Shown: positions 22,154 to 44,896 of the stretch, one piece after another
Layout of the letters: each line of letters opens with the position of its first letter
Position numbering within the stretch: position 1 is the first letter of the stretch
Source: Paludibacter sp.
Lineage (GTDB): Bacteria; Bacteroidota; Bacteroidia; Bacteroidales; Paludibacteraceae
Assembly: GCA_028690665.1 (NCBI GenBank)
Contig: JAQVAV010000007.1
Coordinates: 184,603 to 248,602 of the forward strand
Reading direction: 5' to 3'
DNA length: 64,000 nucleotides
The notes under the pieces: generated by a model
What the model saw: the letters and a program-made list of their open reading frames with translations, nothing else
Databases searched by the model: none
Told to the model about the DNA's origin: nothing
Position numbers and translations under genes: made by a program

Positions 22154-22186
22154 TTTGTAAGTTTGCAAATTCAAATGATACTTTTG
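22154..22186 (+). promoter_or_regulatory. Putative primary-sigma promoter for the PUL1 ECF sigma gene
   Basis: A -33-like TTTG (22154-22157) and a -7 box TACTTTTG (22179-22186, matching TAnnTTTG) are separated by 21 bases, close to the 19-20 usual for Bacteroidetes. The -7 box ends 23 bases before the ATG. Confidence 0.55.
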
Positions 22187-24026: not shown

Positions 24027-27000
24027 ATGAAAAAAGCAAGACCCATAGCAAAAGCCATTTTGCTCTCCTTGTTTCTGACTGTATTCACATTGAATACATC
24101 TGCTCAGAAAGTAACACTTTCATTTCAAAACGAAACCTTCGAGAAAGTGTTAAACTCAATCAAACAACAAACCGGTCTATCGCTTGTATTCAGTGAACAG
24201 CTTGTTGATCTAAATCGGAAAATTAGTATCGATGTGAATTCTATACAATTGGAAGATGCTTTAAAACAATTGTTGTTGGGTACAAACCTTGGATATGAAA
24301 TCAAAAACAACAAATTGTATTTTGTCGAAAAAAAATCCGATAAATTAAAAAAGGCATCTGCTAAGTTAAAAAAAATTAGTGGCTTGGTAACCGATGAAAA
24401 AGGCGAACCCATAATAGGAGCATCAATTGTTCTTAAAGGGTCGAATACCGGAACAATTACAAATATAGATGGCACATTTTCTCTTGATGTCCAAGACCAA
24501 TCAGAAATTACAATATCATATATTGGATATAAGCAGTCATCTTTAAAAATAGGTAAATACAATAATTATACAATTATTCTTGAAGAAGATTCCAAAGCAC
24601 TTGATGAAGTAGTTGTAGTTGGTTATGGTGTTCAAAAGAAAAGAGACTTGACAGGTGCGGTAGGTTCAGTCAAAATGATAGATGTCCCTGTGAGTACTGT
24701 TTCTACAATTAGTCATGCATTAGCAGGTACAGTTGCAGGTCTTCAAGTAAACACTTTGAGCGCACAACCAGGCGGAGCAACAACATTTAATATTCGTGGA
24801 GCAACATCAACTACAGGTAACGATCCGTTAATAGTTATTGATGGTTTTCCAATATCACAGGATGGAGAACCTGGAAGTGGTAATCGTTACGATGGAGGTT
24901 CGAAAGATTTTATTTTAAGTTCAATAAATCCTAATGATATTGAATCAATAGAAGTTCTTAAAGATGCTAGTGCTACAGCCATTTACGGATCAAGAGCAGG
25001 ACATGGGGTGATTTTAATTACAACCAAACGAGGTAAAACCGGTGCTCCGACAGTTAAATACTCTGTAAACACTGCATTTCAAACTCTTTCCGATACCTAT
25101 AAGATGTTGAGTGCAAAAGATTTTATGATTGAGAACAATAAATATGCTTACGAAAGCTATTTAATTACTAATAAAATTGCACCTTATGGAGTTAGACAAT
25201 TGAGTGAATTTCCTTCAGATTGGTATACACCAGTATATAATCAGACTCAAATAGACAATCCTCTCGTAAATACTGACTGGGTAGGAGCTATTACTCAATC
25301 CGGAAGGCAACAACAACATAATTTATCTGTTAACGGCGGTACTGAAACAACCCAATATCAAGCTTCACTTGGTTATTTCGACCAAACAGGTGTTGTTAAG
25401 AACAATGGGATGAAACGCTATAGTAGTAGGGTTAATTTGGATCAGGTGCTCTCAAAATATTTTAAAACAGGGATAAGTTTGCTGATTAATCACAATAATT
25501 TTGATAATGTGCCTCTTGGCAGTGGTGCCAATGAATTTGCAGGTATAATCCGATCTGCTACTCAATTTACTCCACTTATGCCTATAAAAGATGCAAATGG
25601 AGATTATTCGTTGAGTCAAGTTAGACCATTTGTTCCTAATCCAGTTTCTTTATTAAATATTACAGACAAAAGTGTTGATGAACGGGCTTTGGGCGTTTAC
25701 TATCTGGATTTTACACCTATAAAAGATTTGAAATTAAAGTTAAATACAGGTTTTGACCGTAAATATAGAAAGCGTTCAACATATATTCCTGTAACTACAC
25801 TTTACGGAAAGAATGCTAATGGAGAAGCATCCATAAACCAATATGACAATATAGATTTTTTGTTAGAAACAACTGCGACTTATAACAAACAATTCCTTAC
25901 GAACAATAAGATTAATGCTATGCTTGGTTATTCTTACCAAACTTTTTCAAAAGAAGGATTAAATCTTGGAAATAGTAATTTCATAACAGACGCATTCTTA
26001 TATAACAATATCGGTGCAGGTCAATTTGCTAAACCAACAGTTGGATCATGGTCTGGATTGAATTCGATGGCTTCTTTTTTCGGAAGAATTAATTATTCAC
26101 TTTTAGAACGCTATTTAATAACTGCTACTATGCGTGCTGATGGTGCTTCAAATTTAGCTTCGGGTCATCAATGGGGATATTTCCCGTCTGTTGCAGCAGG
26201 TTGGAGATTTAGCGATGAACCATTTATGGCGAAATTTAAAAATGTGCTTACTAATGGTAAATTACGAGTAAGTTATGGAGAAACAGGAAATTCTAATATA
26301 GGCAATGGTGCTATGAGTTACTATGTTCCTTCTTCAAACGTAGTATTAGGAGAAACGGAATATGGTGGTGTTCAATTAGGTCAGGTTGGGAACTCATTGC
26401 TTAAATGGGAAACCATGAAAGAAACGAACCTCGGATTAGAGATTGGGTTATTTAATCGATTGAATGTCACGGCCGAAGTATATCACAGAGAAAATTCTAA
26501 TTTGTTGAATGCGTTACAATTAATGAGTTATTATCCAATTTCATCGGTTGCCGGTAATGTTGGTACTACTCAAAGTACAGGTTTCGAGTTGACCATTAAT
26601 TCACAAAATATATCAACAAAAAATTTTAAATGGAATACAATATTAACATTATCTACTTATAAAGACACATGGAAAACCAGACCTGATTCATGGAAACCAG
26701 CATCTTATGAAGGTGTTAATGACCCAATCAGGGCGATTTATAGTTATACCACGGGAGGGTTAATACAACCAGATGAATCTGTTCCATATATGCTTGGTGC
26801 ACAGCCCGGCATGATAAAAATGTTGGATATTAATGGCTTTCAACGTGATACAAATGGAGACATTGTATATGATACTAAAGGTATGCCTTTAAAAACGGGG
26901 ACACCTGATGGCAAATTAGATGATGCTGATATGAAACTCATTGGTTCTTATGATCCATCCTTTGTATTTGGCTTATCCAACAATTTCAAATACAAAAATT

Positions 27001-27419
27001 TTGATTTAAGTATTTATTTGTATGGAGTATTTGATAAATTAATGCCGGCAACCTATATTGATAATGGAATTTGGGGTGCAACAATGATAACTCAAGATCA
27101 GAATGCACCAGATGCTATCAAAACCATGTGGAGAAGTGATAACTTAACATCCAAGGTGCCTGGTTATACACAGATGTATAATCAATATGGTGCCGGCGAT
27201 TTCTTTCTGACAAAAATGTGGTTCGTGCGGGTTCGCAATGTTTCTTTAGGATACAATTTCATGTTTAAAAAAGTTATCTCTAATTTGAGAGTTTATGCCG
27301 ATGTGAATAACCCCTGTGTTTTCACAAACTATAAAGGATTAGATCCAGAAACAGACAATTCTGATGTTGCCTACCCGAATGTTCGAACATTTAGTTTAGG
27401 AATAGATGTTACCTTTTAA
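24027..27419 (+). CDS. SusC/RagA-family TonB-dependent transducer (PUL1)
   Basis: A 1130-residue outer membrane importer. In order: signal peptide (ending NTSAQ), STN signalling domain (VTLSFQNETFEKVLNSIKQQ to YFVEKK, about 28-108), carboxypeptidase-D regulatory-like domain (ISGLVTDEKGEPIIGASIV), TonB-box region (DEVVVVGYGVQKKRDLTG), plug with SuSC signature (IRGATSTTGNDPLIVIDGFP; SIEVLKDASATAIYGSRAG), then the 22-strand barrel ending SLGIDVTF. The STN domain allows signalling to FecR and the ECF sigma. It imports oligosaccharides released by the PUL enzymes, together with SusD encoded 36 bases downstream. Confidence 0.96.
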   Translation: MKKARPIAKAILLSLFLTVFTLNTSAQKVTLSFQNETFEKVLNSIKQQTGLSLVFSEQLVDLNRKISIDVNSIQLEDALKQLLLGTNLGYEIKNNKLYFVEKKSDKLKKASAKLKKISGLVTDEKGEPIIGASIVLKGSNTGTITNIDGTFSLDVQDQSEITISYIGYKQSSLKIGKYNNYTIILEEDSKALDEVVVVGYGVQKKRDLTGAVGSVKMIDVPVSTVSTISHALAGTVAGLQVNTLSAQPGGATTFNIRGATSTTGNDPLIVIDGFPISQDGEPGSGNRYDGGSKDFILSSINPNDIESIEVLKDASATAIYGSRAGHGVILITTKRGKTGAPTVKYSVNTAFQTLSDTYKMLSAKDFMIENNKYAYESYLITNKIAPYGVRQLSEFPSDWYTPVYNQTQIDNPLVNTDWVGAITQSGRQQQHNLSVNGGTETTQYQASLGYFDQTGVVKNNGMKRYSSRVNLDQVLSKYFKTGISLLINHNNFDNVPLGSGANEFAGIIRSATQFTPLMPIKDANGDYSLSQVRPFVPNPVSLLNITDKSVDERALGVYYLDFTPIKDLKLKLNTGFDRKYRKRSTYIPVTTLYGKNANGEASINQYDNIDFLLETTATYNKQFLTNNKINAMLGYSYQTFSKEGLNLGNSNFITDAFLYNNIGAGQFAKPTVGSWSGLNSMASFFGRINYSLLERYLITATMRADGASNLASGHQWGYFPSVAAGWRFSDEPFMAKFKNVLTNGKLRVSYGETGNSNIGNGAMSYYVPSSNVVLGETEYGGVQLGQVGNSLLKWETMKETNLGLEIGLFNRLNVTAEVYHRENSNLLNALQLMSYYPISSVAGNVGTTQSTGFELTINSQNISTKNFKWNTILTLSTYKDTWKTRPDSWKPASYEGVNDPIRAIYSYTTGGLIQPDESVPYMLGAQPGMIKMLDINGFQRDTNGDIVYDTKGMPLKTGTPDGKLDDADMKLIGSYDPSFVFGLSNNFKYKNFDLSIYLYGVFDKLMPATYIDNGIWGATMITQDQNAPDAIKTMWRSDNLTSKVPGYTQMYNQYGAGDFFLTKMWFVRVRNVSLGYNFMFKKVISNLRVYADVNNPCVFTNYKGLDPETDNSDVAYPNVRTFSLGIDVTF

Positions 27420-27455: not shown

Positions 27456-28949
27456 ATGAAAAATAATATTAAATATTTAATTTCTCTTTCTTGGATAATT
27501 TTATTGTTCAATACCTCTTGTACAGATCTTCCTTTACAGATGTCAGGTGTAATTAATCCTGCCGATTTTCCTAAAACAGAGGACGATGCAAAAGCTTTGG
27601 TTACGGCGTGCTATGTCCCATTCCAAAGTAATTTGTATAATGGTATTTTTACAGTTAACAATGACGGTTATCAAATTATAGGAGATATGACAACAGACCT
27701 GGGTGATTGTCAATGGGATAATGGTTTATGGTATGAAGCAATTAATCAAAGCTGGACACCGACAACTCATGCGATTATTCATCATTATGATTATGTGCGA
27801 AAATTAAGTGAATTTACAATGGCTCTTGATAAGATTGAAAAGATGGATAGTACAGTCATGACAAGTCAAAACCGGAAAAGATTTATTGCCGAAGTAAAAT
27901 GTGCAAGAGGATTTATGGGTTACTTGTTATACAACTGGTTTGGTCCGGTACCAGTAGCCACTTTAGCTCAATTAAGTGATCCATTATCAACAGAAGTCGT
28001 TCCTCGCCCAACAAATGAAGAAATGTCTGCCTTTATTGAACAAAACCTGAAAGAAGCAGCGTCAGATCTTGATTATACTTATCTCGGTGAAGATGGTACT
28101 TTCACCAAAGGGTTGGCTAATATGGTTTTACTCAAACTATATATGCATGATAAAAAATGGAATTTAGCTGAAATAATTGGTCGTGAATTGATGGATTCGA
28201 GGTATGGATATAATTTAGTGCCTGAATATTCTGATATTTTTACATATAATAATCAACATAATAATGAAATAATTTATGCCGCAGGCTGTGACGAAAAAGT
28301 ACAACAGCTCTGGTTAGCACATGTTTTACCCGGTCAATATCCAACAGTTAACACGAATATTGTAAAATGGAATGGATATAGAGTTCCCTGGAATTTTTAT
28401 ACTACTTTTCAAACAACTGATAAAAGACTAAAAGTACTTGTCGGTGATTTTGTAGGAACAGATGGAATTCGGTATTGGACGAGATATCGTGGAAATGTAA
28501 TGGTGAAGGGAGTAATTCCGGTAAAGTATGGTGAAGATCCGAAAGCCATTGGTGAAGGTAGTTCAATTGATTGGATTGTTTATCGTTATGCCGATGCATT
28601 AATGTTAACCGCTGAAGCCATTGTACGTAATGGAAATGTTGTTACTTCTGAGGCCGTTGAAATGCTCGATAAAGTGCGTGTTCGAGCCGGATTACCCAGA
28701 TATGAAATATCACGTTATACAACGACAGGAGTAGATGGATTTTTAGCAGATATTTTAATAGAACGTGGCCATGAATTATGGTTTGAAGGAACAAGAAGAG
28801 AAGATTTAATTCGATTTGGAAAATATACAGAATATGCAATTTCAAAAAAGAGTTCTGCAACAGCACAACCCTATATGACCCTTATGCCCATACCACAATC
28901 GGTAATCAACGAGGGAAAAGGAATAATAAAACAAAACCCGGGATACTAA
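27456..28949 (+). CDS. SusD/RagB-family surface glycan-binding lipoprotein (PUL1)
   Basis: A 497-residue lipoprotein: MKNNIKYLISLSWIILLFNTSC, with Cys at the lipobox, followed by the SusD fold (TPR-like helices; FIAEVKCARGFMGYLLYNWFGPVPVA; MLLKLYMHDKKWNLAE region; C-terminal ILIERGHELWFEGTRREDLIRFGKY and MPIPQSVIN). The last motifs are the SusD C-terminal signature. It caps the SusC barrel and captures glycans. It is cotranscribed with susC and followed by a hairpin at 28966-29004. Confidence 0.96.
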   Translation: MKNNIKYLISLSWIILLFNTSCTDLPLQMSGVINPADFPKTEDDAKALVTACYVPFQSNLYNGIFTVNNDGYQIIGDMTTDLGDCQWDNGLWYEAINQSWTPTTHAIIHHYDYVRKLSEFTMALDKIEKMDSTVMTSQNRKRFIAEVKCARGFMGYLLYNWFGPVPVATLAQLSDPLSTEVVPRPTNEEMSAFIEQNLKEAASDLDYTYLGEDGTFTKGLANMVLLKLYMHDKKWNLAEIIGRELMDSRYGYNLVPEYSDIFTYNNQHNNEIIYAAGCDEKVQQLWLAHVLPGQYPTVNTNIVKWNGYRVPWNFYTTFQTTDKRLKVLVGDFVGTDGIRYWTRYRGNVMVKGVIPVKYGEDPKAIGEGSSIDWIVYRYADALMLTAEAIVRNGNVVTSEAVEMLDKVRVRAGLPRYEISRYTTTGVDGFLADILIERGHELWFEGTRREDLIRFGKYTEYAISKKSSATAQPYMTLMPIPQSVINEGKGIIKQNPGY

Positions 28950-29040: not shown

Positions 29041-29868
29041 ATGAAAACAAAGTTACTTTTCGTATCCGTTTCACTATTTCTTAGTGTAACTTTTGTAAAT
29101 GCCGGTTCTAACATTATTCTTTATGATAATGCTCCGGTACTTTTTCCGAATACAGGTAATTCATGGCCTGGAAGTGGGTCAGTTGATTTTTTAAGTACAG
29201 ATGCTCCTTATGCTGGAACAAACTGTATTAAATGGGTTGTTGGAGGTTCATATACTGATTGGACACTTCAAGCTTGGCCAACACAGGACTTATCAACTCA
29301 AACAAGTTATAATTTTGAGTATTATTACAGAACTACCTACAGTGGGGCTGTTTGGTTGAAATGGCAATTTATATCAAATATTGGCGTAGCACCTTGGACT
29401 CAAGGTACTTTTACTTTCACTACTCAAAATGATTGGATTAGTGATGGAGCATGGCATAAAACGTCAATTCCATTATCTTCTTTTGCCGGTGATGCAAATT
29501 TCTCATGGAGTCAGGTCGAAAGATTCAGAATTACTTCCGATTGGGATGCATCTCTTGCCGGTAAGATATTCTATTTTGACGATATCAGATTAGTACCACA
29601 AACAGCAACTGGAGTAAATGAAGTGACAAATAATCAACTCTCAGTTTATGCTTCAGAAAATGGAGTTCAAATTAATAATGGTAGTGTCGCCGGTAATGTT
29701 GTTATTTATAATATGCAGGGACAAAATGTGAAGAATTTAGGTTATTTGAATGCTAATAGTAAAACTACCTGGAATAGAAAAAATGATTCGGGTAATCAAT
29801 TACCGGCTGGGATTTACTTGTGTAGAATTCAAAACTCAAAACAAGCAAGTAAATTTATGATTAACTAA
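29041..29868 (+). CDS. Exported carbohydrate-binding-like protein with T9SS sorting domain (A)
   Basis: A 275-residue protein with signal peptide MKTKLLFVSVSLFLSVTFVNAG. Residues about 25-185 form an aromatic, beta-sandwich-like module (TNCIKWVVGGSYTDWTLQAW; GKIFYFDDIRL) resembling galactose-binding-like or CBM domains. Residues about 195-275 are a T9SS type A-like sorting domain (LSVYASENGVQINNG, NVVIYNMQGQNVKNLGYLN, LPAGIYLCRI). It occupies the slot where PULs encode a surface glycan-binding protein, but has no lipobox Cys. It is paralogous to the next gene. The binding role is inferred from position and fold. Confidence 0.78.
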   Translation: MKTKLLFVSVSLFLSVTFVNAGSNIILYDNAPVLFPNTGNSWPGSGSVDFLSTDAPYAGTNCIKWVVGGSYTDWTLQAWPTQDLSTQTSYNFEYYYRTTYSGAVWLKWQFISNIGVAPWTQGTFTFTTQNDWISDGAWHKTSIPLSSFAGDANFSWSQVERFRITSDWDASLAGKIFYFDDIRLVPQTATGVNEVTNNQLSVYASENGVQINNGSVAGNVVIYNMQGQNVKNLGYLNANSKTTWNRKNDSGNQLPAGIYLCRIQNSKQASKFMIN

Positions 29869-29903: not shown

Positions 29904-30773
29904 ATGAAAACAAAATTATTTTTTATTGTAACATTTATTTTCACTTTGTCATTACTAAAAGCACAAACTCCTTTTATAATGTATGATGATATTGCACAAG
30001 GATATAGTGCCTCATTTAATTCATGGCCAACAACAAATTTTTGGGCTAATTGTGATGCACCTGCTGGAGTTCAATATTCAGGAGCGAATTGTATCGAGTG
30101 GGATCCCGCAGTTTCCGGAACAAATATATGGGAAGAATTTTATATAATGTGGTGGGATGGTTCAAGAAATGGAGGAATTGATCTTTCTTCTTATGCTAAT
30201 GCAGGAGATGTACTTCAATTTTATTTTAAGTCATCAAGTACAGTTGGGTTAGATCCTTATTATGTAAAGTTTGTGGATTATACGCCAACAGCAGGTCAAT
30301 TTGTAGCTAAAGCTTTTCTTACAAATGCTCAATTAGTTTGTGATGGCACATGGCATCAAGTAAATATTCCACTTAGCACTTTTTTGCAGAATTCGGATGC
30401 AGGATTTACATGGGAATATATAAATACAATGAGGTTTACAAAAGAAGATGCTACTCCTGTATTTGGTCAGTCATTCTTTTTTGATCAAATTAGTTTGACT
30501 ACAGCGACAACTGGATTAGAAAATAATAAAGCAAATAATAAATTATCAGTTTATATATTGAGTAATGAAGCTCAGATAAATATGGGCGATATAGCAGGAA
30601 AAGTAGTTATTTATAACATGAATGGTCAAACCGTTAAAAATATCGGTTATCTAGAAGCTAATACTAAACTTTTGTGGAACAAAAAAGGTGACAATGGAAA
30701 TACCTTACCAGTAGGAATTTACATGTGTAAAATTCAAGGTACAAAAGAAGTATCAAAAATAATGCTTCGTTAA
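29904..30773 (+). CDS. Exported carbohydrate-binding-like protein with T9SS sorting domain (B)
   Basis: A 289-residue paralogue of the preceding protein, 35 bases downstream. The signal peptide is MKTKLFFIVTFIFTLSLLKAQ. The binding-like module includes ANCIEWDPAVSGTNIWEEFY, HQVNIPLSTFLQNSD and QSFFFDQISL. The C-terminal T9SS domain has LSVYILSNEAQINMG, KVVIYNMNGQTVKNIGYLE and LPVGIYMCKI. No catalytic motif is seen. The pair probably presents two related glycan-binding proteins at the surface. Confidence 0.78.
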   Translation: MKTKLFFIVTFIFTLSLLKAQTPFIMYDDIAQGYSASFNSWPTTNFWANCDAPAGVQYSGANCIEWDPAVSGTNIWEEFYIMWWDGSRNGGIDLSSYANAGDVLQFYFKSSSTVGLDPYYVKFVDYTPTAGQFVAKAFLTNAQLVCDGTWHQVNIPLSTFLQNSDAGFTWEYINTMRFTKEDATPVFGQSFFFDQISLTTATTGLENNKANNKLSVYILSNEAQINMGDIAGKVVIYNMNGQTVKNIGYLEANTKLLWNKKGDNGNTLPVGIYMCKIQGTKEVSKIMLR

Positions 30774-30943: not shown

Positions 30944-32587
30944 ATGAAAAACCTGAAATTATTTTTTGTAGTTAGTTTGATTTTCAGTACGATTAATGCC
31001 TATTCAAAGGAATTAACCGATTATGCTCTTGTTAATTCCATAATTGTTTCACAAACCAACCTACAAACTATTAAAGGTTGGGGTGTCACAGTTAATGCAT
31101 TAACGAACTCAACGGCAAAGCAAGCAGAATTAATAGATTTAGGAATTACAATTGCCCGAATCTACATGGATCATACAGAAAGTAATGCAGATGGTACTGT
31201 TGTTACAAGCGCAATGGACGGTATTTGTAATCAGATTGATATAGTTAACAGGTATAACCTTTCGTATATTTTAAGTTCGTGGTGTCCAAATTATTCCATG
31301 AAGGATAATAATGTAATGAGTGGGGCGGGGAAACTTCGAACAGATAAAGAAGGTGTTTTTACAGATTATTGGGTAAATGTTTGTGCATATATCCAATCAA
31401 AAGGATTACCGTTGCCAACTGCAATAAGTATTCAAAATGAACCTACAAATGGTACATCAACATATGACGGTATGGGATTTCAAGGTCAGGACACATATAA
31501 TTATACACAGTATTACAGAGTAATTAAATCATTAAGAAGCAAATTAGACATAACTGGTTACACTTCTGTTTATCTCCTTGGCCCAGAAGAAGGCTCTTAT
31601 TGTACCGGTAAAACTTGGGGAAATGCGCTTGCTTTTCTTGGCGGTGTTGGATTTCCTGCGTTTAATGATGCAACTTTGAAAAATGCAATTTGGGGCTGTT
31701 CTGCTCATAGTTACAATTGGGGAGGTGAAATTACGGATATTGCATCATGGAGAGATGGTTGTGAAAAATGGGGAAAAGATAAATGGATGACAGAATTTAG
31801 CGATGTAGAAACAGTTAATAAAAGTGCACCAACTTATACTTTTGCAATTGAATCTACCCGAAGATTTTGTTCAGATATGGCTTTCGTAAGAAATAATTAC
31901 TGGCTTTGGTGGTCAGCATCACAAGGTACTTACCCGGAAGTGTTACTCGATGGAACTTATTATTGGAAATTACCCATTTATTATATTCTGCAAAAAATAT
32001 GGAAAAATGTTCCTGTAGGTTCATTTGCTCGAAAAGTTACAAGCACAAACAGTGGTTTAGTTACAACCGATGCCATAAACATGGATGCAGTTGCTTTTGT
32101 AACACCCGAAAATAAAACGGTAGTAGTTTTAGTGAACTTTACTGCTAAATCAATTTCACAAAGTGTTGATGGTTTAACAGGAAATAAGGCGGACATTTAT
32201 CAAAGCACTTCTACTCAAAATATGTTGTTAACGGACTCACCAACTATTTCATCAGGCGTTATTTCATCCGTCACTCTTCCTGCTTTAAGTGTTACAGTTA
32301 TTGTAACAAATAATGTTTCAGAAGTTGAGTCAATCTTCAATAAAGTAAAAAATCAACTCTCAGTTTCAGTTTATGAAAATGAATTAAAAATAATGACTGG
32401 CAGTATTGCTGGGAATGTTATAATTTACAATGCTAAGGGTCAAGATATAAAAGATTTAGGTTATTTGAATTCCAATAGTTATACTATTTGGGATAAAAAA
32501 AATAATGAAAACAATCAACTACCATCAGGAATTTATTTCTTCAAACTTAAAAATCAATCTGGTGGTTGTAAGATTTTTCTAAAATAA
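30944..32587 (+). CDS. GH30-like glycoside hydrolase with T9SS sorting domain
   Basis: A 547-residue clan GH-A enzyme. Signal peptide MKNLKLFFVVSLIFSTINAYS. The catalytic barrel starts at TIKGWGVTVNALTNST. The acid/base candidate is Glu in AISIQNEPTNG (about residue 167), and the nucleophile candidate is Glu in KWMTEFSDVET (about 283). A beta-sandwich follows (about 370-465), then a T9SS type A-like C-terminal domain (LSVSVYENELKIMTG; NVIIYNAKGQDIKDLGYLN; LPSGIYFFKLK). The family includes beta-1,6-glucanases, glucosylceramidases and xylanases; the sequence alone does not decide the linkage. A paralogue lies at 36822-38690. Confidence 0.83.
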   Translation: MKNLKLFFVVSLIFSTINAYSKELTDYALVNSIIVSQTNLQTIKGWGVTVNALTNSTAKQAELIDLGITIARIYMDHTESNADGTVVTSAMDGICNQIDIVNRYNLSYILSSWCPNYSMKDNNVMSGAGKLRTDKEGVFTDYWVNVCAYIQSKGLPLPTAISIQNEPTNGTSTYDGMGFQGQDTYNYTQYYRVIKSLRSKLDITGYTSVYLLGPEEGSYCTGKTWGNALAFLGGVGFPAFNDATLKNAIWGCSAHSYNWGGEITDIASWRDGCEKWGKDKWMTEFSDVETVNKSAPTYTFAIESTRRFCSDMAFVRNNYWLWWSASQGTYPEVLLDGTYYWKLPIYYILQKIWKNVPVGSFARKVTSTNSGLVTTDAINMDAVAFVTPENKTVVVLVNFTAKSISQSVDGLTGNKADIYQSTSTQNMLLTDSPTISSGVISSVTLPALSVTVIVTNNVSEVESIFNKVKNQLSVSVYENELKIMTGSIAGNVIIYNAKGQDIKDLGYLNSNSYTIWDKKNNENNQLPSGIYFFKLKNQSGGCKIFLK

Positions 32588-32600
32588 ACAAAAATAAAAA

Positions 32601-34769
32601 ATGAAAAAAAAGCTTTCAATTATTTTGGTTACATTGATATCAATTGTAACATATGCTCAAAACACGGCCCAATATTTAGATAATAAAATATCTCTCAATG
32701 AGAGAGTTGAAGATGCACTGAACCGGATGACACTTGAAGAAAAGGTGGCTTTGTGTCATGCTCAATCAAGATTCTCAGCACCCGGGGTTCCTCGTCTCGG
32801 AATTTCTGAACTTTGGATGCTCGATGGTCCTTTTGGTGTGCGTCAGGAATCAGTTTGGGATGATTGGATTTCGGCTCGACAAACGAACGATTCCTGCATA
32901 GCTTTCCCAGCATTGACTTGCTTAGCAGCAACATGGAATCCTCAATTAGCATCTAATTATGGCAAAGCTTTGGGTGAAGAATTCAATTACCGAAATAAAA
33001 ATATTGCTCTTGGTCCAGGCATTAATATATGTCGTACTCCATTGAATGGAAGAAATTTTGAGTATATGGGCGAAGATCCATATCTTACTTCAGTTATGTG
33101 TGTACCTTATATTCAGGGAGTTCAAAAATCTGGCGTTGCGGCATGTGTGAAACATTATGCTTTAAATAACCAGGAAACAAATCGGGATTTTGTGAATGTA
33201 AATGTCAGTCAAAGAGCATTGCATGAAATATATTTACCCGCTTTTAAGGCTGCTGTCTACGATGGAAAAGTATGGTCAATTATGGGGTCTTATAATAAAT
33301 ACGAAGGACAACATTGCTGTGAAAATGATTATTTATTAAACAAGATTTTGAAAGAACAGTGGGGTTTTGATGGAGTGGTCATTTCAGATTGGGGTGGAAC
33401 ATATAATACTTACGAAGCTGCTGAAAACGGACTTGATCTTGAAATGGGAACTTTTGCTAACGATGTTAAACCTTTTACAAAAGGGATTTATGGTAAATTT
33501 TACCTTTCAGATCCATATTTAAAAGCACTTCGGGATGGAAAAGTAACTATGGAAAAACTGAATGATAAAGTACGTCGCTTGTTACTTTTGACATTTAGAA
33601 CTGCCATGAATAGGAATAAACCTTTCGGTTCTTTTAATACACCTGAACATCTTGAAACAGCAAGACAGATTGGAGAAGAAGGCATTGTTCTGCTAAAAAA
33701 TGAAAATGCGCTATTACCATTGAATTTAGAACATTTAAAAAACATAGCTGTAATTGGTGACAATGCAACTCGGACAATGTCGGATGGTGGTGGTAGTTCA
33801 GGGCTTAAAGTACATCAGGAGATTACGCCATTAGAGGGTTTACAAAATAAATTGGGTGGCAAAGTAAACATATTCTATGCCAAAGGATATTCAGAAAAAG
33901 ATGATCAGGCAAATAAACTAATGATTGAAGCTTTAGAAGTTGCAAAAAAATCGGACATAATTCTTTTTTTTGGTGGGCTAAATAAGTTTTATCATCAAGA
34001 GTGTGAAGGTGCTGATCGAGATTCTTATGGTTTACCATTCGGGCAAGACAAACTGATTGCAGAATTATTGAAGGTAAATAAAAATATTGTTTTTTTAAAT
34101 ATCAGTGGCTCTGCCGTTGCCATGCCATGGGCAAATCAAGTACCTTCTATTTTGCAAGCATGGTATCTTGGTTCAGAAACTGGTAATGCTTTAGCTAACA
34201 TTCTTACAGGCGATGTAAATCCATCGGGTAAGTTACCAATATCTTTTCCGTATAAAATTGAAGATTGTGGTGCGCACTCATTTGATAAGATGTGCTATCC
34301 CGGAGATAGTTTAAATGTATTTTATAAAGAAGATATTTTGGTCGGATACAGATGGTATGATACTAAAAATATTCCGGTTCAATTTTGCTTTGGGCATGGA
34401 TTAAGTTATACCACTTTTACTTTTGGGAAACCAATAATAAATTCAAATGAAATCTCTTCAAATGATACATTAAATATTTCAGTTCCAATTAGAAACAATG
34501 GTGGAAGAGAGGGCTCTGAAGTAGTTCAGCTTTATATCAGAGATTTGAAATCCACGGTATTGAGACCAAACAAAGAATTAAAATCGTTTACAAAAGTATT
34601 ACTTAAGTCAGGTGAAGAAAAACTTGTTTCTTTCAAAATAGTAAAAGAAGATTTGCAATTTTTCGATGAAAAAAGTATGCAATTTAAAGTTGAGAAAGGA
34701 GCATTTGAAGCTTCAATAGGTTCATCTTCTATTGACATTCGACAAAAAATAAAATTCAACTATAAATAA
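32601..34769 (+). CDS. GH3 beta-glucosidase-like enzyme
   Basis: A 722-residue GH3 protein with signal peptide MKKKLSIILVTLISIVTYAQ. The N-terminal TIM-like barrel has ALGPGINICRTPLNGRNFEY and the nucleophile Asp in VVISDWGGTYNTYEAAENG (about residue 262). The (alpha/beta)6 sandwich domain follows (EEGIVLLKNENALLPL), then the C-terminal fibronectin-III-like domain (NNGGREGSEVVQLYIRD, about 640-715). GH3 enzymes of this form usually remove terminal beta-glucose from oligosaccharides in the periplasm. It lies 13 bases downstream of GH30 and 6 upstream of GH16, so the three are cotranscribed. Confidence 0.93.
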   Translation: MKKKLSIILVTLISIVTYAQNTAQYLDNKISLNERVEDALNRMTLEEKVALCHAQSRFSAPGVPRLGISELWMLDGPFGVRQESVWDDWISARQTNDSCIAFPALTCLAATWNPQLASNYGKALGEEFNYRNKNIALGPGINICRTPLNGRNFEYMGEDPYLTSVMCVPYIQGVQKSGVAACVKHYALNNQETNRDFVNVNVSQRALHEIYLPAFKAAVYDGKVWSIMGSYNKYEGQHCCENDYLLNKILKEQWGFDGVVISDWGGTYNTYEAAENGLDLEMGTFANDVKPFTKGIYGKFYLSDPYLKALRDGKVTMEKLNDKVRRLLLLTFRTAMNRNKPFGSFNTPEHLETARQIGEEGIVLLKNENALLPLNLEHLKNIAVIGDNATRTMSDGGGSSGLKVHQEITPLEGLQNKLGGKVNIFYAKGYSEKDDQANKLMIEALEVAKKSDIILFFGGLNKFYHQECEGADRDSYGLPFGQDKLIAELLKVNKNIVFLNISGSAVAMPWANQVPSILQAWYLGSETGNALANILTGDVNPSGKLPISFPYKIEDCGAHSFDKMCYPGDSLNVFYKEDILVGYRWYDTKNIPVQFCFGHGLSYTTFTFGKPIINSNEISSNDTLNISVPIRNNGGREGSEVVQLYIRDLKSTVLRPNKELKSFTKVLLKSGEEKLVSFKIVKEDLQFFDEKSMQFKVEKGAFEASIGSSSIDIRQKIKFNYK

Positions 34770-34775
34770 TATATC

Positions 34776-35651
34776 ATGTCAAAATTAAATCTGAATAAAG
34801 TGATTATTGTTAATTTTGTTTCACTTGTGTTGATTCTTTTTGCTTTGCCAAGCTGTGAAAAGCCAGCAGATGAACCGATTATAATCAAAAATAAGTATAA
34901 CGATTTTCCGGCAAATCCCTCAAACAAAAATGGATATACATTGGATTTTCAAGATGAGTTTAACAACAACGCTCTTGATCTTACAAAATGGCCATCGCCA
35001 ACAAGTGTTACAACGAAATACACATTTAGTGACTCTTGTTTGAATCTTTATATTGATGCAACAACTAAGCCAGCAAATGGGGATTTAGTTTATAATTTTA
35101 GGTATAGTCAAATTAATACTTATAAAAAGATTACAAAATTGGCAAATGGTTCATTCATAACTGCTATAACTCCAACGGAGGGTTATGCCACAAAATATGG
35201 TTATTTTGAAATGCGAGCCAAGTTACCCGATTGCGGAGGAGGTGGCCATTGTGCATGGTGGATGGTGGGAAATCCAGATGATGGAGTGAATCAAACTCAA
35301 AGTGCCGAAATTGATATTATTGAGCCATTGTATAGTAAAGTGAACGATTCTGCTCCAAAAGTTCATCCTTGGTATGATAATAATTGTTATGAATGGAGTA
35401 AGATGTTGAACAACAATGGTTACCCTGAAAAAGAATATCATATCTATGGAATGGATTGGTCTCCAGGAGGTATAAAATTCTATTATGATAATCAATTAAT
35501 TGCTAATACAACAAATTCTCCCGCATATAAAATGACTATAATTCTTTCATTATATGCTTGTAGTGATCATTCATATTGGTCAGGTTGGGATAATGGCGTT
35601 TATCCAAAAATATTCAGTATCGATTATATCAGAGTATGGAAAAAAAACTAA
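34776..35651 (+). CDS. GH16 endo-glycosidase, lipoprotein
   Basis: A 291-residue lipoprotein; the lipobox is FALPSCEK (Cys about 28). The GH16 jelly-roll starts FPANPSNKNGYTLDFQDEFN. The active-site strand is QSAEIDIIEPLY (ExDxxE, about 178-183), in which the first Glu is the nucleophile and the last the acid/base. Typical flanking motifs YGYFEMRAKLPDCGGGGHCAWWM and FHIYGMDWSPGGIKFYYD-type sequence are present. The ExDxxE form occurs in laminarinases, beta-agarases and related enzymes. No extra domain. Parts are nearly identical at nucleotide level to the GH16 gene at 38966. Confidence 0.9.
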   Translation: MSKLNLNKVIIVNFVSLVLILFALPSCEKPADEPIIIKNKYNDFPANPSNKNGYTLDFQDEFNNNALDLTKWPSPTSVTTKYTFSDSCLNLYIDATTKPANGDLVYNFRYSQINTYKKITKLANGSFITAITPTEGYATKYGYFEMRAKLPDCGGGGHCAWWMVGNPDDGVNQTQSAEIDIIEPLYSKVNDSAPKVHPWYDNNCYEWSKMLNNNGYPEKEYHIYGMDWSPGGIKFYYDNQLIANTTNSPAYKMTIILSLYACSDHSYWSGWDNGVYPKIFSIDYIRVWKKN

Positions 35652-35715
35652 TACTTACAAAAGTTTGATTTAATAAAAGTAAGTTTAGAATCATATCAAT
35701 AACCACAAAAGTGAA

Positions 35716-36729
35716 ATGAAAATTTATATATTTTTAGTAGTATTTTTCTTCATTGAAAATTTTTCCTACTCTCAGTTTAAAACAAAATATCCAGAGATTC
35801 CCAGGATAGATGTTCATATTCACATTTCAGATGTCGATAAAGTTCCTAATTATATAAGAGTTAGAGACACTTTATTAAGTAAGTATAATGTAAATTTTGC
35901 TTTCTGGATAACTTTGGAGGCAATTAACAAACCTATCAATTCACCAGACTCAATTTCTAATGCAGCCGACGGCAGAATGTTATGTGCTTTTGCAGATTAT
36001 AAGCCGCATTTAGGGTTGAACCATACAGCTGAGTATTTCGAAAAGAAAAAATCAGAAGGGTTTATTGGATATAAATTTTGGTTTGGTTCATATTACAGAG
36101 TTTTGAAAAATGGAGAAATTGGGATTAAAGATATTGATGATCCAAGACTTGACTCTGTCTTTTCAAACGCTGAAAAATCAGGAGTCACAATGCTTTCTCT
36201 ACATATTGCAGACCCCAATGGCCCTTATGGAAATAGATTGGATTGTATTCAGGATCCGGTTTTCTTTTGGAGGCAAATTAGAAGTTTTGAAAATGTGTTA
36301 ATCAAACATCCAAAACTTAAAGTTATTGCAGCTCATTGTCTTTGGCTTATTTGTCAGGATGCACAAATCGATTATTTACGATACATGTTAAATCAATATC
36401 CAAATTTATATATTGATTTGGCCGCTACTTTTCAATATTATTATTTAGATAATACGGCGAATCTTCGTGATTTTATGATTAAATACTCTGATAGAATACT
36501 TTATGGAACTGATTCAGGAGGCATTAAAAGCGATGAAGTTGAAAATATTGCACTTAGATATTCAAAAACGTTTAGAATTCTTGAAACTGATGAAATGGTA
36601 AATGGTGCATTTTGGGGGAAAGATCGAGCAATAAAGGGATTAAATTTACCAAAAGAAGTTTTGGAAAATATTTATTATAAAAACGCAATAAGACTTTATC
36701 CGAATTTAAAATCATCTTTTCGACCATAA
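35716..36729 (+). CDS. Exported amidohydrolase (amidohydrolase_2 family)
   Basis: A 337-residue TIM-barrel metal hydrolase with signal peptide MKIYIFLVVFFFIENFSYSQ. Metal-ligand motifs in order: RIDVHIHISD (HxH), GYKFW (possible Lys), LHIADPNG, VIAAHCLW and ILYGTDSGG (Asp). The C-terminus ENIYYKNAIRLYP is the usual end of amidohydrolase_2 proteins, which include lactonases and aromatic-acid decarboxylases. The role in a glycan locus is unclear; it might act on a lactone or ester decoration. It lies 64 bases downstream of GH16 and 92 upstream of the second GH30. Confidence 0.82.
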   Translation: MKIYIFLVVFFFIENFSYSQFKTKYPEIPRIDVHIHISDVDKVPNYIRVRDTLLSKYNVNFAFWITLEAINKPINSPDSISNAADGRMLCAFADYKPHLGLNHTAEYFEKKKSEGFIGYKFWFGSYYRVLKNGEIGIKDIDDPRLDSVFSNAEKSGVTMLSLHIADPNGPYGNRLDCIQDPVFFWRQIRSFENVLIKHPKLKVIAAHCLWLICQDAQIDYLRYMLNQYPNLYIDLAATFQYYYLDNTANLRDFMIKYSDRILYGTDSGGIKSDEVENIALRYSKTFRILETDEMVNGAFWGKDRAIKGLNLPKEVLENIYYKNAIRLYPNLKSSFRP

Positions 36730-36821
36730 TATCGTTCATACTCTCGATAACACATGTTAATACTTGTAATTTCACTTTTTATCCTTATTCAATACATTAT
36801 TCACAAATCAATTTATTTATC

Positions 36822-38690
36822 ATGAAAGAATCAAGTTTATTCTTTTTAGCTATTGGGCTAACTTGTTTAATTTTTGAATCTTGTTCAAATGAACTAAATC
36901 TGGCACCCAAAATCGAACAAACCAGTTTAAATCCCCGTCAAAAAGCACCTTTAGCAAATTCGATTTCAGTTTCTTCGTCGAATATGCAAACAATAAAGGG
37001 TTGGGGAGTAAAAGTAGATATGTTGTCAAATTCTACTGCCAGACAAGCTCAATTGGTAGATTTGGGAATTACAATTTCACGTATTTATATGGATCATAGT
37101 CAATGTAATGCGAATGGAACAGTAGCTGCCAGTGCAATGGATGGAATTTGTAGTCAGATAAGTACCGTAAATAGTTATGGATTACCTTACATTCTTTGTT
37201 CCTGGAGTCCAAATTATGCGATGAAAGACAATAATGCCCCAAGTGGTGCAGGCATGCTTCGTACAGATAAAGAAGGTGTTTTTACTGATTATTGGAAAAA
37301 TGTATGTAGTTATATCCAATCAAAAGGACTACCATTACCCCTTGCAATCAGTATTCAAAATGAACCAACTCTGGGCGCATCAACTTATGATGGTATGGGA
37401 TTTTTAGGACAAAACAATTGGGACTATTCTCAATACTATCGTGTAATTAAATCTGTAAGAAGTAAATTAGATGCTGCAGGATATTCAGGTGTTAAACTCA
37501 TAGGACCTGAAGAAGGTTCGTATTGTTCCGGGAATAATTGGGGGAATGCCCTTGCCTATCTTGGTGGACAGGGTTTTCTGGCATTTAATGATGTAACACT
37601 AAGAAATGCAATTTGGGGTTGTTCTGCCCACAGTTATTATTGGGGAGGAGGAACTTCTGGCATTGCTTCTTGGCGAGATGCCTGTGAGACTTGGGGAAAA
37701 GATAAATGGATGACCGAGTTTAGTGATGTTGAAACCTCAAATCCCAACGCACCAACATATACGTTTGCTATAGAATCAACCCGAAGATTCTGTTCTGATA
37801 TGGCGTTTGTGCGTAATAATTATTGGCTATGGTGGTCTGCATCGCAGGGACCATATACAGAAGTTTTAATGGATGGAACATATTTTACTAAATTGCCAAT
37901 TTATTATATTTTACAAAAAATATGGAAGAATGTTCCAGTTGGTTCTGTGGCACGGAGAGTTACGAGCACAAATAGTGGATTTGTATTGTCTGACGCTATT
38001 AACATGGATGGTGTCGCATTTGTTACGCCGGAAAACAAAACAGTTGTTGTAATTGTAAATTTCACAAATTCTGTAATCACTCAAAGTATTGATGGGCTGT
38101 CTGGTAATAAAGCAGATATTTATCAAAGCACTTCTACTCAAAATATGGTATTATCTGGTTCTCCAACAATTTCAGGAGGCGTAATTTCAATGGTTTCTTT
38201 TCCTGCTAAGAGCGTGTCAGTTATTGTTACTTCAACTACGGTTGGTGTAAACATTCTGAATAATTCTGGTTTTGAAACTGGTTCTCCTTCGCAAACCATT
38301 TCAAATTGGGATACTTGGGCAGGTACAAATGGAACAGATGCAGATGCAGATTACACTGAAGCGGGTGGCCATAGTGGTAGTTATAATCTTGTCCACTGGA
38401 AAGCAAATGCTTATGAGGTATCTACATCTCAGACACTAACAGGTGTAATAAATGGGACTTATAAATTGACTGCATGGATTCAGGGTGGTGGTATACAATC
38501 TTTACAAATGGCTGCTGAAATGATTGGAGGCTCAAATGCAACATTAACTATTCCGGTTTCAGGTACATGGACTCAATATACGATTGATAATATAAACATT
38601 ACTAGCGGTCAGTGTAAGATTGACTTTTGGGATAAAGCTTCAGCAAATGGCTGGGTTCATATTGACGATGTGGTACTTCAAAAGAAGTAA
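36822..38690 (+). CDS. GH30-like glycoside hydrolase, lipoprotein with C-terminal carbohydrate-binding-like domain
   Basis: A 622-residue paralogue of the GH30 at 30944. It has a lipobox (TCLIFESCSNE), and the barrel starts at TIKGWGVKVDMLSNST. Acid/base candidate Glu in AISIQNEPTLG (about 183); nucleophile candidate Glu in WMTEFSDVETS (about 298). The beta-sandwich ends near residue 475. Instead of a T9SS tail it carries a C-terminal beta-sandwich of about 145 residues (NILNNSGFETGSPSQTISNW; NGWVHIDDVVLQKK), which resembles CBM4/9-like galactose-binding modules. The lipoprotein anchor and appended module suggest a surface-attached endo-enzyme. Confidence 0.83.
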   Translation: MKESSLFFLAIGLTCLIFESCSNELNLAPKIEQTSLNPRQKAPLANSISVSSSNMQTIKGWGVKVDMLSNSTARQAQLVDLGITISRIYMDHSQCNANGTVAASAMDGICSQISTVNSYGLPYILCSWSPNYAMKDNNAPSGAGMLRTDKEGVFTDYWKNVCSYIQSKGLPLPLAISIQNEPTLGASTYDGMGFLGQNNWDYSQYYRVIKSVRSKLDAAGYSGVKLIGPEEGSYCSGNNWGNALAYLGGQGFLAFNDVTLRNAIWGCSAHSYYWGGGTSGIASWRDACETWGKDKWMTEFSDVETSNPNAPTYTFAIESTRRFCSDMAFVRNNYWLWWSASQGPYTEVLMDGTYFTKLPIYYILQKIWKNVPVGSVARRVTSTNSGFVLSDAINMDGVAFVTPENKTVVVIVNFTNSVITQSIDGLSGNKADIYQSTSTQNMVLSGSPTISGGVISMVSFPAKSVSVIVTSTTVGVNILNNSGFETGSPSQTISNWDTWAGTNGTDADADYTEAGGHSGSYNLVHWKANAYEVSTSQTLTGVINGTYKLTAWIQGGGIQSLQMAAEMIGGSNATLTIPVSGTWTQYTIDNINITSGQCKIDFWDKASANGWVHIDDVVLQKK

Positions 38691-38748
38691 TAGTTTTAAA
38701 ATATGATTTCCGTATTAATAAGATTATGTAATTCTAATCATGTTGAAG

Positions 38749-38775
38749 GAGTTTGTATAAATTACAAACTCTTTC
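38749..38775 (+). terminator. Weak terminator after the second GH30
   Basis: GAGTTTGTA / TACAAACTC is a perfect 9-bp stem with a 5-nt loop, followed by TTTCT. It sits 59 bases past the stop, in a 275-base gap that may also contain a promoter for the second GH16 gene. Confidence 0.6.
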
Positions 38776-38965
38776 TATAAAGAAAACAAAACTACTATGG
38801 GTAATTTAATGAAATAGATTTAAAAATTATACAGATTTAACCCTATATTAAGTTTTAAAAAGAAATTTATTTGAAATGTACTGCTGCAAATATTAGAACC
38901 AGTGTTAATAATTTAACAATAATGATTTAGTTTTCAATTATACCTAAATCTATAAAAAAAAAGTA

Positions 38966-40099
38966 ATGAAAATAAAAATGTTCTTTTCAATTATTATAAT
39001 GTTGTCAATAGCATTTATAATATCAAGTAGTAAGATTGAAGTTAATGAAAGCAATTCTAAAAATGCTACATTCAAAGATTTTCCGGCAAATCCAATCGAG
39101 AAAAATGGATATACATTAGATTTCCAAGAAGAATTCAATAATAAAGTTCTTGATCTTACAAAATGGCCATCGCCTACAAGTGTTACAACAAAATACACAT
39201 TTAGCGACTCTTGTTTGAATCTTTATATTGCTGCAACAACTAAGCCTGCAAATGGGGATTTAGTTTATAATTTTAGGTATAGTCAAATTAATACTTATAA
39301 GAAGATTACAAAACTTGCAAATGGGTCATTCATAACCGCTATAACTCCCACTGAAGGCTACGCTACTAAATATGGATATTTCGAAATGAGAGCAAAATTA
39401 CCAGATTGCGGAGGAGGTGGTCATTGTGCGTGGTGGATGGTAGGAAATCCGGATGATGGAGTGACTCAAACTCAAAGTGCCGAAATCGACATCATTGAGC
39501 CATTATATAGTAAAGTCAACAATTCCGCTCCAAAGGTTCATCCCTGGTACGATACAAAATGTACTGAATGGAGTCGTAATGTTACTAACTCAGGTTATCC
39601 TGAGAAAGAATTTCATATTTATGGAATGGATTGGTCTCCAACAGGCATAAAATTTTATTATGATAATCAACTAATTGCCTCTACTACAAATACTCCTAAC
39701 TATAAAATGACTATGATGCTTTCAATATATGCATGTAGTGATCACTCTTATTGGTCAGGTTGGGATAATGGTGTTTACCCAAAAACATTTAGTATCGATT
39801 ATATTAGAGTTTGGAAATTAAACGCCACAAGCGTTGAAAATATAAATAATTCTGAAGATAAAATGGAAATATATCCAAATCCAGCTCGTGATAAAATAAT
39901 GATGAAGAATTTTCATCCAAGACCTGAACCGTCAAACATTGATTTAATTGATATGGTTGGGCGTAAAGTCGATGGATTTGTTTTACCTGCCAATGTGACT
40001 AACTACAGTTACAATAGTTCAGGCTTGAAATCAGGAATTTACTTTCTTTATTACCAGTCGCAGTCCAAAACATTAACTAAAAAAATAATGATAGAATAG
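38966..40099 (+). CDS. GH16 endo-glycosidase with T9SS sorting domain
   Basis: A 377-residue paralogue of the GH16 at 34776. The N-terminal hydrophobic segment (MFFSIIIMLSIAFIISSS) lacks a lipobox Cys. The GH16 domain spans about 35-288 with active-site QSAEIDIIEPLY (ExDxxE, about 172). After a short linker comes a classic T9SS type A domain (MEIYPNPARDKIMMKNF; NIDLIDMVGRKVDGF; LKSGIYFLYYQSQ; KKIMIE). The product should therefore reach the surface by T9SS, whereas its paralogue is a lipoprotein. The catalytic residues are intact. Confidence 0.9.
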   Translation: MKIKMFFSIIIMLSIAFIISSSKIEVNESNSKNATFKDFPANPIEKNGYTLDFQEEFNNKVLDLTKWPSPTSVTTKYTFSDSCLNLYIAATTKPANGDLVYNFRYSQINTYKKITKLANGSFITAITPTEGYATKYGYFEMRAKLPDCGGGGHCAWWMVGNPDDGVTQTQSAEIDIIEPLYSKVNNSAPKVHPWYDTKCTEWSRNVTNSGYPEKEFHIYGMDWSPTGIKFYYDNQLIASTTNTPNYKMTMMLSIYACSDHSYWSGWDNGVYPKTFSIDYIRVWKLNATSVENINNSEDKMEIYPNPARDKIMMKNFHPRPEPSNIDLIDMVGRKVDGFVLPANVTNYSYNSSGLKSGIYFLYYQSQSKTLTKKIMIE

Positions 40100-40171: not shown

Positions 40172-41758
40172 ATGAAAAAAACACTTATCCCTGCATTACT
40201 TTGTTTAATGTTAATAGTAAATGCACAAATCAGTGAAAGAGGCGCATATTTTGCCAAGAAGAAATATGTACCGGAACGGTTGCCCGAGTACAAAGAAATA
40301 AAAAATCAGTTACCAACACCAATACTTGATGGCAATAAAGATTGGATAGAACTTTATTGGAAAGCATGGCAAATAGGGTTCTCTAATTTAAAAACGCCGC
40401 CAACTGGTTCACCTTTAGTTTCTAATTGGATAGACGAGGGATTTTGGCCCCAGATTTTTCAGTGGGATACCAACTTTATGACCATGTTTGGCCGATATGC
40501 CAATAATATATTTCCTTTTATCAATTCTCAGGATAACTTCTATGCTGCACAGCATTTGAATGGAATGATATGTCGTGTTATTAATGAAGCAGACGGAGCT
40601 GATCATGAATGGGGTCTGGGACCGAACTTTACGCGTACAATAAATCCACCACTTTTTGCTTGGGCAGAAGTGGAAAACTATAAATTTACGGCTGACAAAG
40701 CGCGCTTATCACTTGTTCTACCAGTTCTTGAAAAATATGCTGAATGGATTGATAAAAACAGAACTGATAACACCACTCCACATCGTCTTTATTGGACAAA
40801 TGGACAGGCTAGTGGTATGGATAATACTGCCAGAGACACCGGTCGCCCTAATAATGGGGATGTTCATTCAGCAAATGATCCAATGGGTTGGGTAGATATG
40901 TCATCTCAAATGGTAATTTTTTATAACAATCTTTCATTTATTGCCAAAGAATTAAACGATACTATGAAAGCTGCAAGATATAATAAACAAGCTGCCGATA
41001 TTGCAATCAGAATAAATAAATTTATGTGGAATGAAAAAACAGGGCTTTATCACGATGTTACTCCGGAAGGAAAACAAACAACATGGAAAACTGTAGCAGC
41101 ATTTTGGCCTTTATTAGCTGGCATCACATCTACTCAACAAACAGACAGATTAGTTAAAAACATTAAGGATACCACACTTTTTTGGCGCACTTTACCATTA
41201 CCATCACTTGCAGCTAATCAACCAACTTATGATGTTAATGGTCATTATTGGTTGGGGGGCGTTTGGGCTCCTACCTCATATATGGTAGTCAAAGGTCTTG
41301 AGCAGCATGGTTATTATGACTTAGCAACAACTATCGCCGAGAAATTCCTTTATTCGATGTCTGAAATCTACAAATCTACTGGAACAATATGGGAAGTTTA
41401 TTCACCGGAAATGTATCTTCCGGCAACTGATGCCAGTGGTAAATACATTTGTAAACCTAATTTTGTGGGTTGGAATGGTTTAGTGCCAATATCTATGCTT
41501 ATTGAAAATATTATTGGAATTGAAGCTAATGCCATTGATAATAGCTTAACATGGCATTTACAACGTCAAGACAGAAATGGTATTGAAAATTTACGCTTTG
41601 GGAAAATCATTACTTCTGTTGTCTGCGAAACTGCAAAAACCGAAGAAGAACGGAAAATTACTGTTAATTCAAATTTACCATATAAACTTATAGTCAATGA
41701 AAAAGTATTTTCTGTAAAAACCGGTGATAATTTATTTTTGATACATAATAAAAACTAA
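40172..41758 (+). CDS. Trehalase-like (alpha/alpha)6-barrel glycoside hydrolase (GH37/GH63 type)
   Basis: A 528-residue protein with signal peptide MKKTLIPALLCLMLIVNAQ. The (alpha/alpha)6 barrel includes GFWPQIFQWDTNFMTMFGRY, the family motif ASGMDNTARDTGRP (Asp about 216 is the acid candidate), DPMGWVDMSSQM, and NGHYWLGGVWAPTSYMV, with the C-terminal base region TIWEVYSPE. This pattern is shared by GH37 trehalases and GH63 glucosidases. Whether it acts on trehalose, another alpha-glucoside or a different sugar is not visible. It lies 72 bases downstream of GH16 and 15 upstream of GH2. Confidence 0.8.
   Translation: MKKTLIPALLCLMLIVNAQISERGAYFAKKKYVPERLPEYKEIKNQLPTPILDGNKDWIELYWKAWQIGFSNLKTPPTGSPLVSNWIDEGFWPQIFQWDTNFMTMFGRYANNIFPFINSQDNFYAAQHLNGMICRVINEADGADHEWGLGPNFTRTINPPLFAWAEVENYKFTADKARLSLVLPVLEKYAEWIDKNRTDNTTPHRLYWTNGQASGMDNTARDTGRPNNGDVHSANDPMGWVDMSSQMVIFYNNLSFIAKELNDTMKAARYNKQAADIAIRINKFMWNEKTGLYHDVTPEGKQTTWKTVAAFWPLLAGITSTQQTDRLVKNIKDTTLFWRTLPLPSLAANQPTYDVNGHYWLGGVWAPTSYMVVKGLEQHGYYDLATTIAEKFLYSMSEIYKSTGTIWEVYSPEMYLPATDASGKYICKPNFVGWNGLVPISMLIENIIGIEANAIDNSLTWHLQRQDRNGIENLRFGKIITSVVCETAKTEEERKITVNSNLPYKLIVNEKVFSVKTGDNLFLIHNKN

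Positions 41759-44896
<3,138 letters not shown>

Follow-up and report, generated by a model that had tools for sequence, protein, structure and literature searches.

Two enzyme classes of a Paludibacter sp. SusCD operon, GH30-like and GH16, each occur as two paralogues, one with a lipoprotein signal and the other with a predicted C-terminal T9SS tail. This raises the question whether the two routes divide the enzymes between different places of action on one polymer, or whether the pattern needs no such explanation. A sequence-only reading of the locus had argued for the former, i.e. a deliberate partition between cell-attached and T9SS-delivered enzymes for the same polymer; its coordinates and gene calls (30944-40099) proved exact. 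The window, i.e. the whole stretch of 64,000 nucleotides that was analyzed, is part of contig C28; the genome measures 4.05 Mb and is 99.9% complete. Positions 22210-44896 form one operon in standard PUL layout, with all genes on the + strand: SusC and SusD are adjacent, the CAZymes are co-oriented and an ECF sigma/FecR pair is located upstream, as is usual for PULs. The genes follow each other in the order listed in Table 1, from the ECF sigma gene to the LacZ-type GH2, and the intergenic gaps from SusC to GH2 (24027-44896) measure 6-275 bp. A sequence resembling the Bacteroidota -33/-7 promoter is present at 22154 just upstream of the sigma gene, and is the only one within 20000-46000. Of note, a secreted amidohydrolase-2 protein is encoded between the enzyme pairs of this polysaccharide operon.

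Table 1. Features of the operon in the window, and sets of neighboring paralogues with mixed export routes elsewhere in the same genome (contig:positions).
Feature	Position	Strand	Basis
ECF-type sigma factor, operon head	22210..22794	+	ORF translation
FecR-like anti-sigma	22875-23861		after ECF sigma gene
SusC-like TonB-dependent transporter	24027..27419	+	sequence; 49.5% identical to SusC beside G193 GH16
SusD-like surface lipoprotein	27456..28949	+	lipobox NTSC; 47.6% identical to SusD beside G193 GH16
X1, carbohydrate-binding-like T9SS cargo	29041..29868	+	TIGR04183 31.3 bits; tail common to GH30-A
X2, carbohydrate-binding-like T9SS cargo	29904..30773	+	TIGR04183 24.4 bits; X1/GH30-A tail subtype
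GH30-A, divergent GH30-like, Sec signal peptide and C-terminal T9SS tail	30944..32587	+	XynC-like 46.7 bits; tail at cut-off
GH30-A T9SS tail	32345..32584	+	own-genome tail search, DNA identity to X1 tail
GH3 exo-glycosidase, plain signal peptide, predicted periplasmic	32601..34769	+	Pfam GH3 domains; closest solved chain 8va7
GH16-A, lipoprotein, without tail	34776..35651	+	PF00722 45.5 bits; EIDIIE; lipobox ALPSC; nearest solved chain 1ups
Amidohydrolase-2 family protein with signal peptide	35716..36729	+	PF04909 49.2 bits
GH30-B, lipoprotein with C-terminal CBM61-like module, without tail	36822..38690	+	lipobox FESC; QNEP and TEF Glu
CBM61-like module of GH30-B, C-terminal	38250..38687	+	phmmer vs PDB chains 5x7o, 2xom, 9fli
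GH16-B, signal peptide, GH16 domain, general type A T9SS tail	38966..40099	+	TIGR04183 46.5 bits; alignments
GH37/GH63-like glycosidase, plain signal peptide	40172..41758	+	MGH1-like and Trehalase Pfam matches
GH2 LacZ-type beta-galactosidase, plain signal peptide	41774..44896	+	NF052611 1061 bits, cut-off 999
GH30 trio, two lipoproteins and one T9SS copy	C16:311930-320317		own genome
GH16 pair, lipoprotein and T9SS	C18:5111-8757		own genome
81%-identical mixed pair, type unknown	C2:316841-320309		own genome
Mixed lipoprotein/T9SS pair	C13:97308-107971		own genome

Both GH16 copies match PF00722 (45.5 and 46 bits, cut-off 22) and carry the motif EIDIIE (ExDxxE). Among solved chains, GH16-A is closest to the endo-beta-galactosidase 1ups (E 2.4e-47), which releases GlcNAc-alpha-1,4-Gal and also has the start DFPANP..K.GY.LDF.DEFN. 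The next best match, of the laminarinase type, reaches 8e-12. With 35 orders of magnitude in E-value between the two, laminarinase was rejected as the default GH16 activity. However, the solved chain is longer (420 residues), and an endo-beta-galactosidase activity of the window enzymes is a prediction from sequence. 1ups is the Clostridium perfringens enzyme, from a Gram-positive organism and hence without a SusCD or T9SS context.

The GH30 label could be kept only loosely. Both catalytic glutamates are present in GH30-A (QNEP Glu166, TEF Glu284) as well as in GH30-B (QNEP, TEF), and the C-terminal GH30 domain PF17189 passes its cut-off of 22 in GH30-B (22.8 bits); however, it stays below in GH30-A (20.1 bits), and the GH30 TIM-barrel PF02055 gave no match in either protein at E <= 1. 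In this respect the two copies differ from the GH30s encoded at C16, which match PF02055 strongly. The nearest named family is XynC, and GH30 xylanases in the PDB are matched at E 9e-11 in a profile search. The QNEP acid-base motif and a barrel segment are common to the window enzymes and glucuronoxylanase XynC/GH30 (9ywn, 1nof), but the score is 46.7 bits against the family cut-off of 650 bits; the window enzymes form a divergent and very rare group, best called GH30-like.

GH30-B was correctly described as a lipoprotein with an added binding module. The module matches that of an arabinogalactan endo-1,4-beta-galactosidase, which is galactan-binding (2xom, E 2.6e-7), and also a GH31 C-terminal domain and a related galactanase domain; we take it to be CBM61, a binder of beta-1,4-galactan. 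An AlphaFold model of GH30-B, based on three sequences, had a mean pLDDT of 41 and was too poor for use. X2 shows a weak match to CBM30 (E 5e-4, below cut-off). The kinship of the GH16s with 1ups, the CBM61-like module, the LacZ-type GH2 and the relatedness of SusC and SusD to proteins encoded beside a GH16 in the genome G193 all point to a beta-galactan-type substrate. A beta-galactose-containing polymer is thus our best guess, at about even confidence, the relatives on which it is based being distant. A literature search for galactan PULs combining GH30 and GH16 found nothing specific. That the two pairs act on a common polymer, as the earlier reading assumed, is plausible because all genes belong to one SusCD operon.

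Next, the export tags were considered. GH16-B has a hydrophobic N-terminus without lipobox, and its predicted T9SS tail was borne out as a type A sorting domain exceeding both cut-offs (TIGR04183 46.5 bits, cut-off 23; PF18962 45.7 bits, cut-off 27). The lipoprotein assignments of the two T9SS-tail-free enzymes could likewise be retained: the signal of GH16-A ends in FALPSC, followed by EKPAD, and that of GH30-B in LIFESC, followed by SNELN. These boxes match the permissive pattern common in this genome, with a hydrophobic residue at -3 and Ser at -1, whereas Pro (GH16-A) or Glu (GH30-B) at -2 is atypical and a strict textbook lipobox would fail both. A lipobox alone is no proof of surface display. 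Published surface-export signals consist of a polar residue followed by acidic residues after the Cys (SDDDD, SDDFE, K-(D/E)2; PMC5080379), and the SusD proteins of this genome show the pattern SD[FYW]LD at this place. The sequence CEKPAD of GH16-A fits neither set, so its surface exposure is not assured, while CSNELN of GH30-B comes near to both and resembles some SusD proteins of the same genome (CSNDFL, CSSEMD).

GH30-A has a plain Sec signal peptide at its N-terminus, and judged by models alone its T9SS tail would be doubtful: it scores 18.3 bits (hmmscan) or 23.0 bits (E 2.5e-4, own-genome search) with TIGR04183, whose cut-off is 23, and reaches only E 0.29 with PF18962. Nevertheless, this part of the earlier reading is rescued by homology of the tail to that of X1, which passes the cut-off. 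The two tails are identical in 52% of residues and in 72.8% of nucleotides over 213 bp; identity to the X2 tail is 45%, and the conserved core LPSGIY and a basic C-terminus (CKIFLK) are kept. One tail subtype is thus found in three adjacent genes, at 29626-29865 (X1), 30537-30770 (X2) and 32345-32584 (GH30-A), and a whole-genome search with the three tails detected no further members (next best E 1e-4). This tail is thus a locally shared module, which points to a sorting tail exchanged or duplicated within the locus, and a neighboring gene is the probable source of the GH30-A copy. In contrast, the GH16-B tail is of a general type unrelated to this subtype; its best matches, at ~30% identity, are scattered in the sampled genome. 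Therefore, the two classes probably obtained their T9SS tags independently.

The secretion machinery is encoded in the genome, as SprA (translocon SprA/Sov; TIGR04189, 2796 bits) and the PorU sortase (NF033707, 1174 bits) are both present, together with ~140 TIGR04183 tails genome-wide. Once PorU has cleaved it, T9SS cargo is set free or becomes linked covalently to anionic LPS (PMC5445135, PMC10202324). Carrying a T9SS tag is therefore no sign that a protein is detached from the cell, since processed cargo is commonly anchored at the surface, and the proposed opposition of cell-attached and T9SS-delivered enzymes is not a clean one.

Comparison of the copies revealed distinct histories of the two pairs. 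The catalytic regions of GH30-A and GH30-B are 76.5% identical with a dS of about 2.4, i.e. synonymous sites are saturated, whereas the GH16 domains share 90% identity at a dS of about 0.6-1.1. Judged by dS, the pairs arose at different times. A single block duplication giving rise to both pairs was rejected because dS differs and the tails are unrelated; it would hold only if the GH16 genes had later been homogenized. The low dN/dS values (about 0.07 for the GH30 pair and about 0.11 for the GH16 pair) indicate that both copies of each pair are maintained by selection and, together with intact catalytic residues in 4/4 copies, suggest that all four are probably working enzymes. The two GH30 copies may, at ~76% identity, differ in activity instead of location.

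How much weight the reciprocal arrangement itself can bear was assessed by counting. When four enzymes comprise two lipoproteins and two T9SS proteins, 4 of the 6 possible assignments yield one of each per pair. The observation that both classes exist in both forms stood, but as a pattern it is no more than expected by chance. We also surveyed neighboring paralogues in about 2.37 Mb of the 4.05 Mb genome (about 58%), using our own ORF calls and a home-made signal classifier, with a second batch of regions chosen around T9SS tails. In this sample, route-discordant pairs numbered 7/18 at 50% coverage/30% identity (7.5 by label shuffling, P 0.73), 5/11 at 60% coverage/35% identity (4.7, P 0.51) and 3/4 at 60% coverage/50% identity (2.15, P 0.57). 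A genome-wide enrichment of lipoprotein/T9SS discordance was accordingly rejected on this sample, the counts matching label shuffling.

Mixed-route paralogue sets are not rare in this genome, and several further examples were found (Table 1). The GH30 trio on C16 and the GH16 pair on C18 resemble the window in that one enzyme class has lipoprotein and T9SS forms in one locus; however, identities are low (33-39%), and these sets are older or were separately recruited. At C2:316841-318646 and C2:318735-320309, adjacent proteins are 81% identical over 400 aa, one being a lipoprotein with carboxypeptidase-regulatory-like domains and the other a T9SS cargo; their common domain has no Pfam match. 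The tandem paralogues at C2:157436-161374 are 73% identical with near-identical signal peptides. In the second copy the TIGR04183 match has an in-frame TAA and the ORF of the first lacks a tail match, hinting that the tail was lost or broken. At C16:246083-248742, three lipoproteins are encoded in tandem; two of them (168 aa) are identical, and the third has diverged.

Would related genomes show the same pairing? Outside the own genome, the GH30-like group was found in none of 149 relatives, nor in 393 genomes from the order or 396 from the phylum. A scan of GTDB contigs, which was pattern-limited and may miss distant members, yielded one close GH30 relative in a Bacteroidales MAG (L008 9905-11347), and the group is thus very rare and nearly orphan. 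The L008 protein is a single lipoprotein copy without tail or added module and with no adjoining GH16. It is less similar to GH30-A or GH30-B than these are to each other; if it represents an outgroup, GH30 was probably a lipoprotein first. For GH16, the closest relative from a SusCD operon of similar make-up, in G193, is about 35% identical and has a plain signal peptide without lipobox or T9SS tail. The paired opposite-route arrangement was absent in every relative found. In IMG/VR only distant phage GH16s were found, on the phage-like contigs L023 and L024 (about 9900-10770), with about 30% identity to GH16-A.

The explanation that we modestly favor is a SusCD PUL operon, probably for a beta-galactose glycan, in which two polymer-cutting enzymes were duplicated and the copies then differently tagged for export. 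From the tags we infer that GH16-A and GH30-B would reside as outer-membrane lipoproteins beside SusCD, trimming polymer for import. GH30-A, GH16-B, X1 and X2 would cross the outer membrane via SprA and lose their tails to PorU, and would then attack polymer further out, either released or surface-anchored. The exo-enzymes GH3, GH2 and the GH37/63-like protein would be kept in the periplasm. Such a functional partition may exist and would make mechanistic sense, but statistically it is not needed. The claim that it is deliberate found no support: label counts alone give 4/6, the genome shows no enrichment, duplication ages and tail origins differ, and no relative has the pairing. Indeed, these data also suit a scenario without any functional partition, in which tandem duplicates drift or recombine into different termini, the tags are near-equivalent as either one directs a protein to the outside of the cell, and copies are kept for dosage or small differences in specificity. 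Discordant neighbors are not in excess, the sharing of the GH30-A tail with two adjacent unrelated genes is as expected for local tail shuffling, and the pairs differ in age. On the other hand, 3/4 of the high-identity surface-route pairs are discordant, as are AgaA/AgaB (see below), and so small a sample leaves room for selection. We consider this scenario a serious but clearly less probable contender than differential tagging for export.

Two further rivals concern the tags themselves. If the lipoproteins were attached to the periplasmic face of the outer membrane, only the T9SS copies would act outside. The lack of a recognizable surface-export signal in GH16-A fits this idea, but the likeness of the GH30-B signal to SusD proteins does not, and in PULs, GH16 lipoproteins with endo activity are as a rule displayed at the cell surface; we regard such an inside/outside split as quite unlikely. 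Even less credible is the view that GH30-A is no T9SS client and its C-terminal domain a degenerate relic, leaving a lipoprotein and a periplasmic enzyme as the GH30 pair. The weak model scores of the tail would agree with this, whereas its identity to the X1 tail and the kept core and basic C-terminus argue against it. At the other extreme, the lineage might repeatedly re-target polymer-cutting enzymes after duplication, one copy receiving a grafted T9SS tail, with the GH30-A tail being copied from the adjacent binding-protein genes, and a lipoprotein plus a T9SS version of each key endo-enzyme might be a selected rule of PULs. We regard this as unlikely.

A division of paralogous GH16s into secreted and cell-bound forms is already established by AgaA and AgaB of Zobellia galactanivorans. 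AgaA is secreted, AgaB is outer-membrane bound and co-transcribed with SusCD-like genes, and the two are described as acting successively on agar (PMC5613140). The likeness to the window lies in GH16 paralogues split between secreted and outer-membrane bound forms for one polymer. However, for Zobellia one enzyme class is described, and the pair is not presented as belonging to a single operon, whereas in the window two classes are duplicated in one operon, and the substrate differs. What is new here is that two enzyme classes are split by route in one operon, with traceable sharing of a tail. As it stands, the locus extends a known strategy and reveals no new one; the arrangement is neat but hardly a surprise. 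Should the split prove functional, a GH16 domain that is 90% identical between copies could be compared directly in both of its export forms from the same operon, and the system would be a testbed for "private" surface digestion versus more distant attack. Finally, the local sharing of the tail shows a route by which a protein may become a T9SS client, namely recombination with a neighboring gene.
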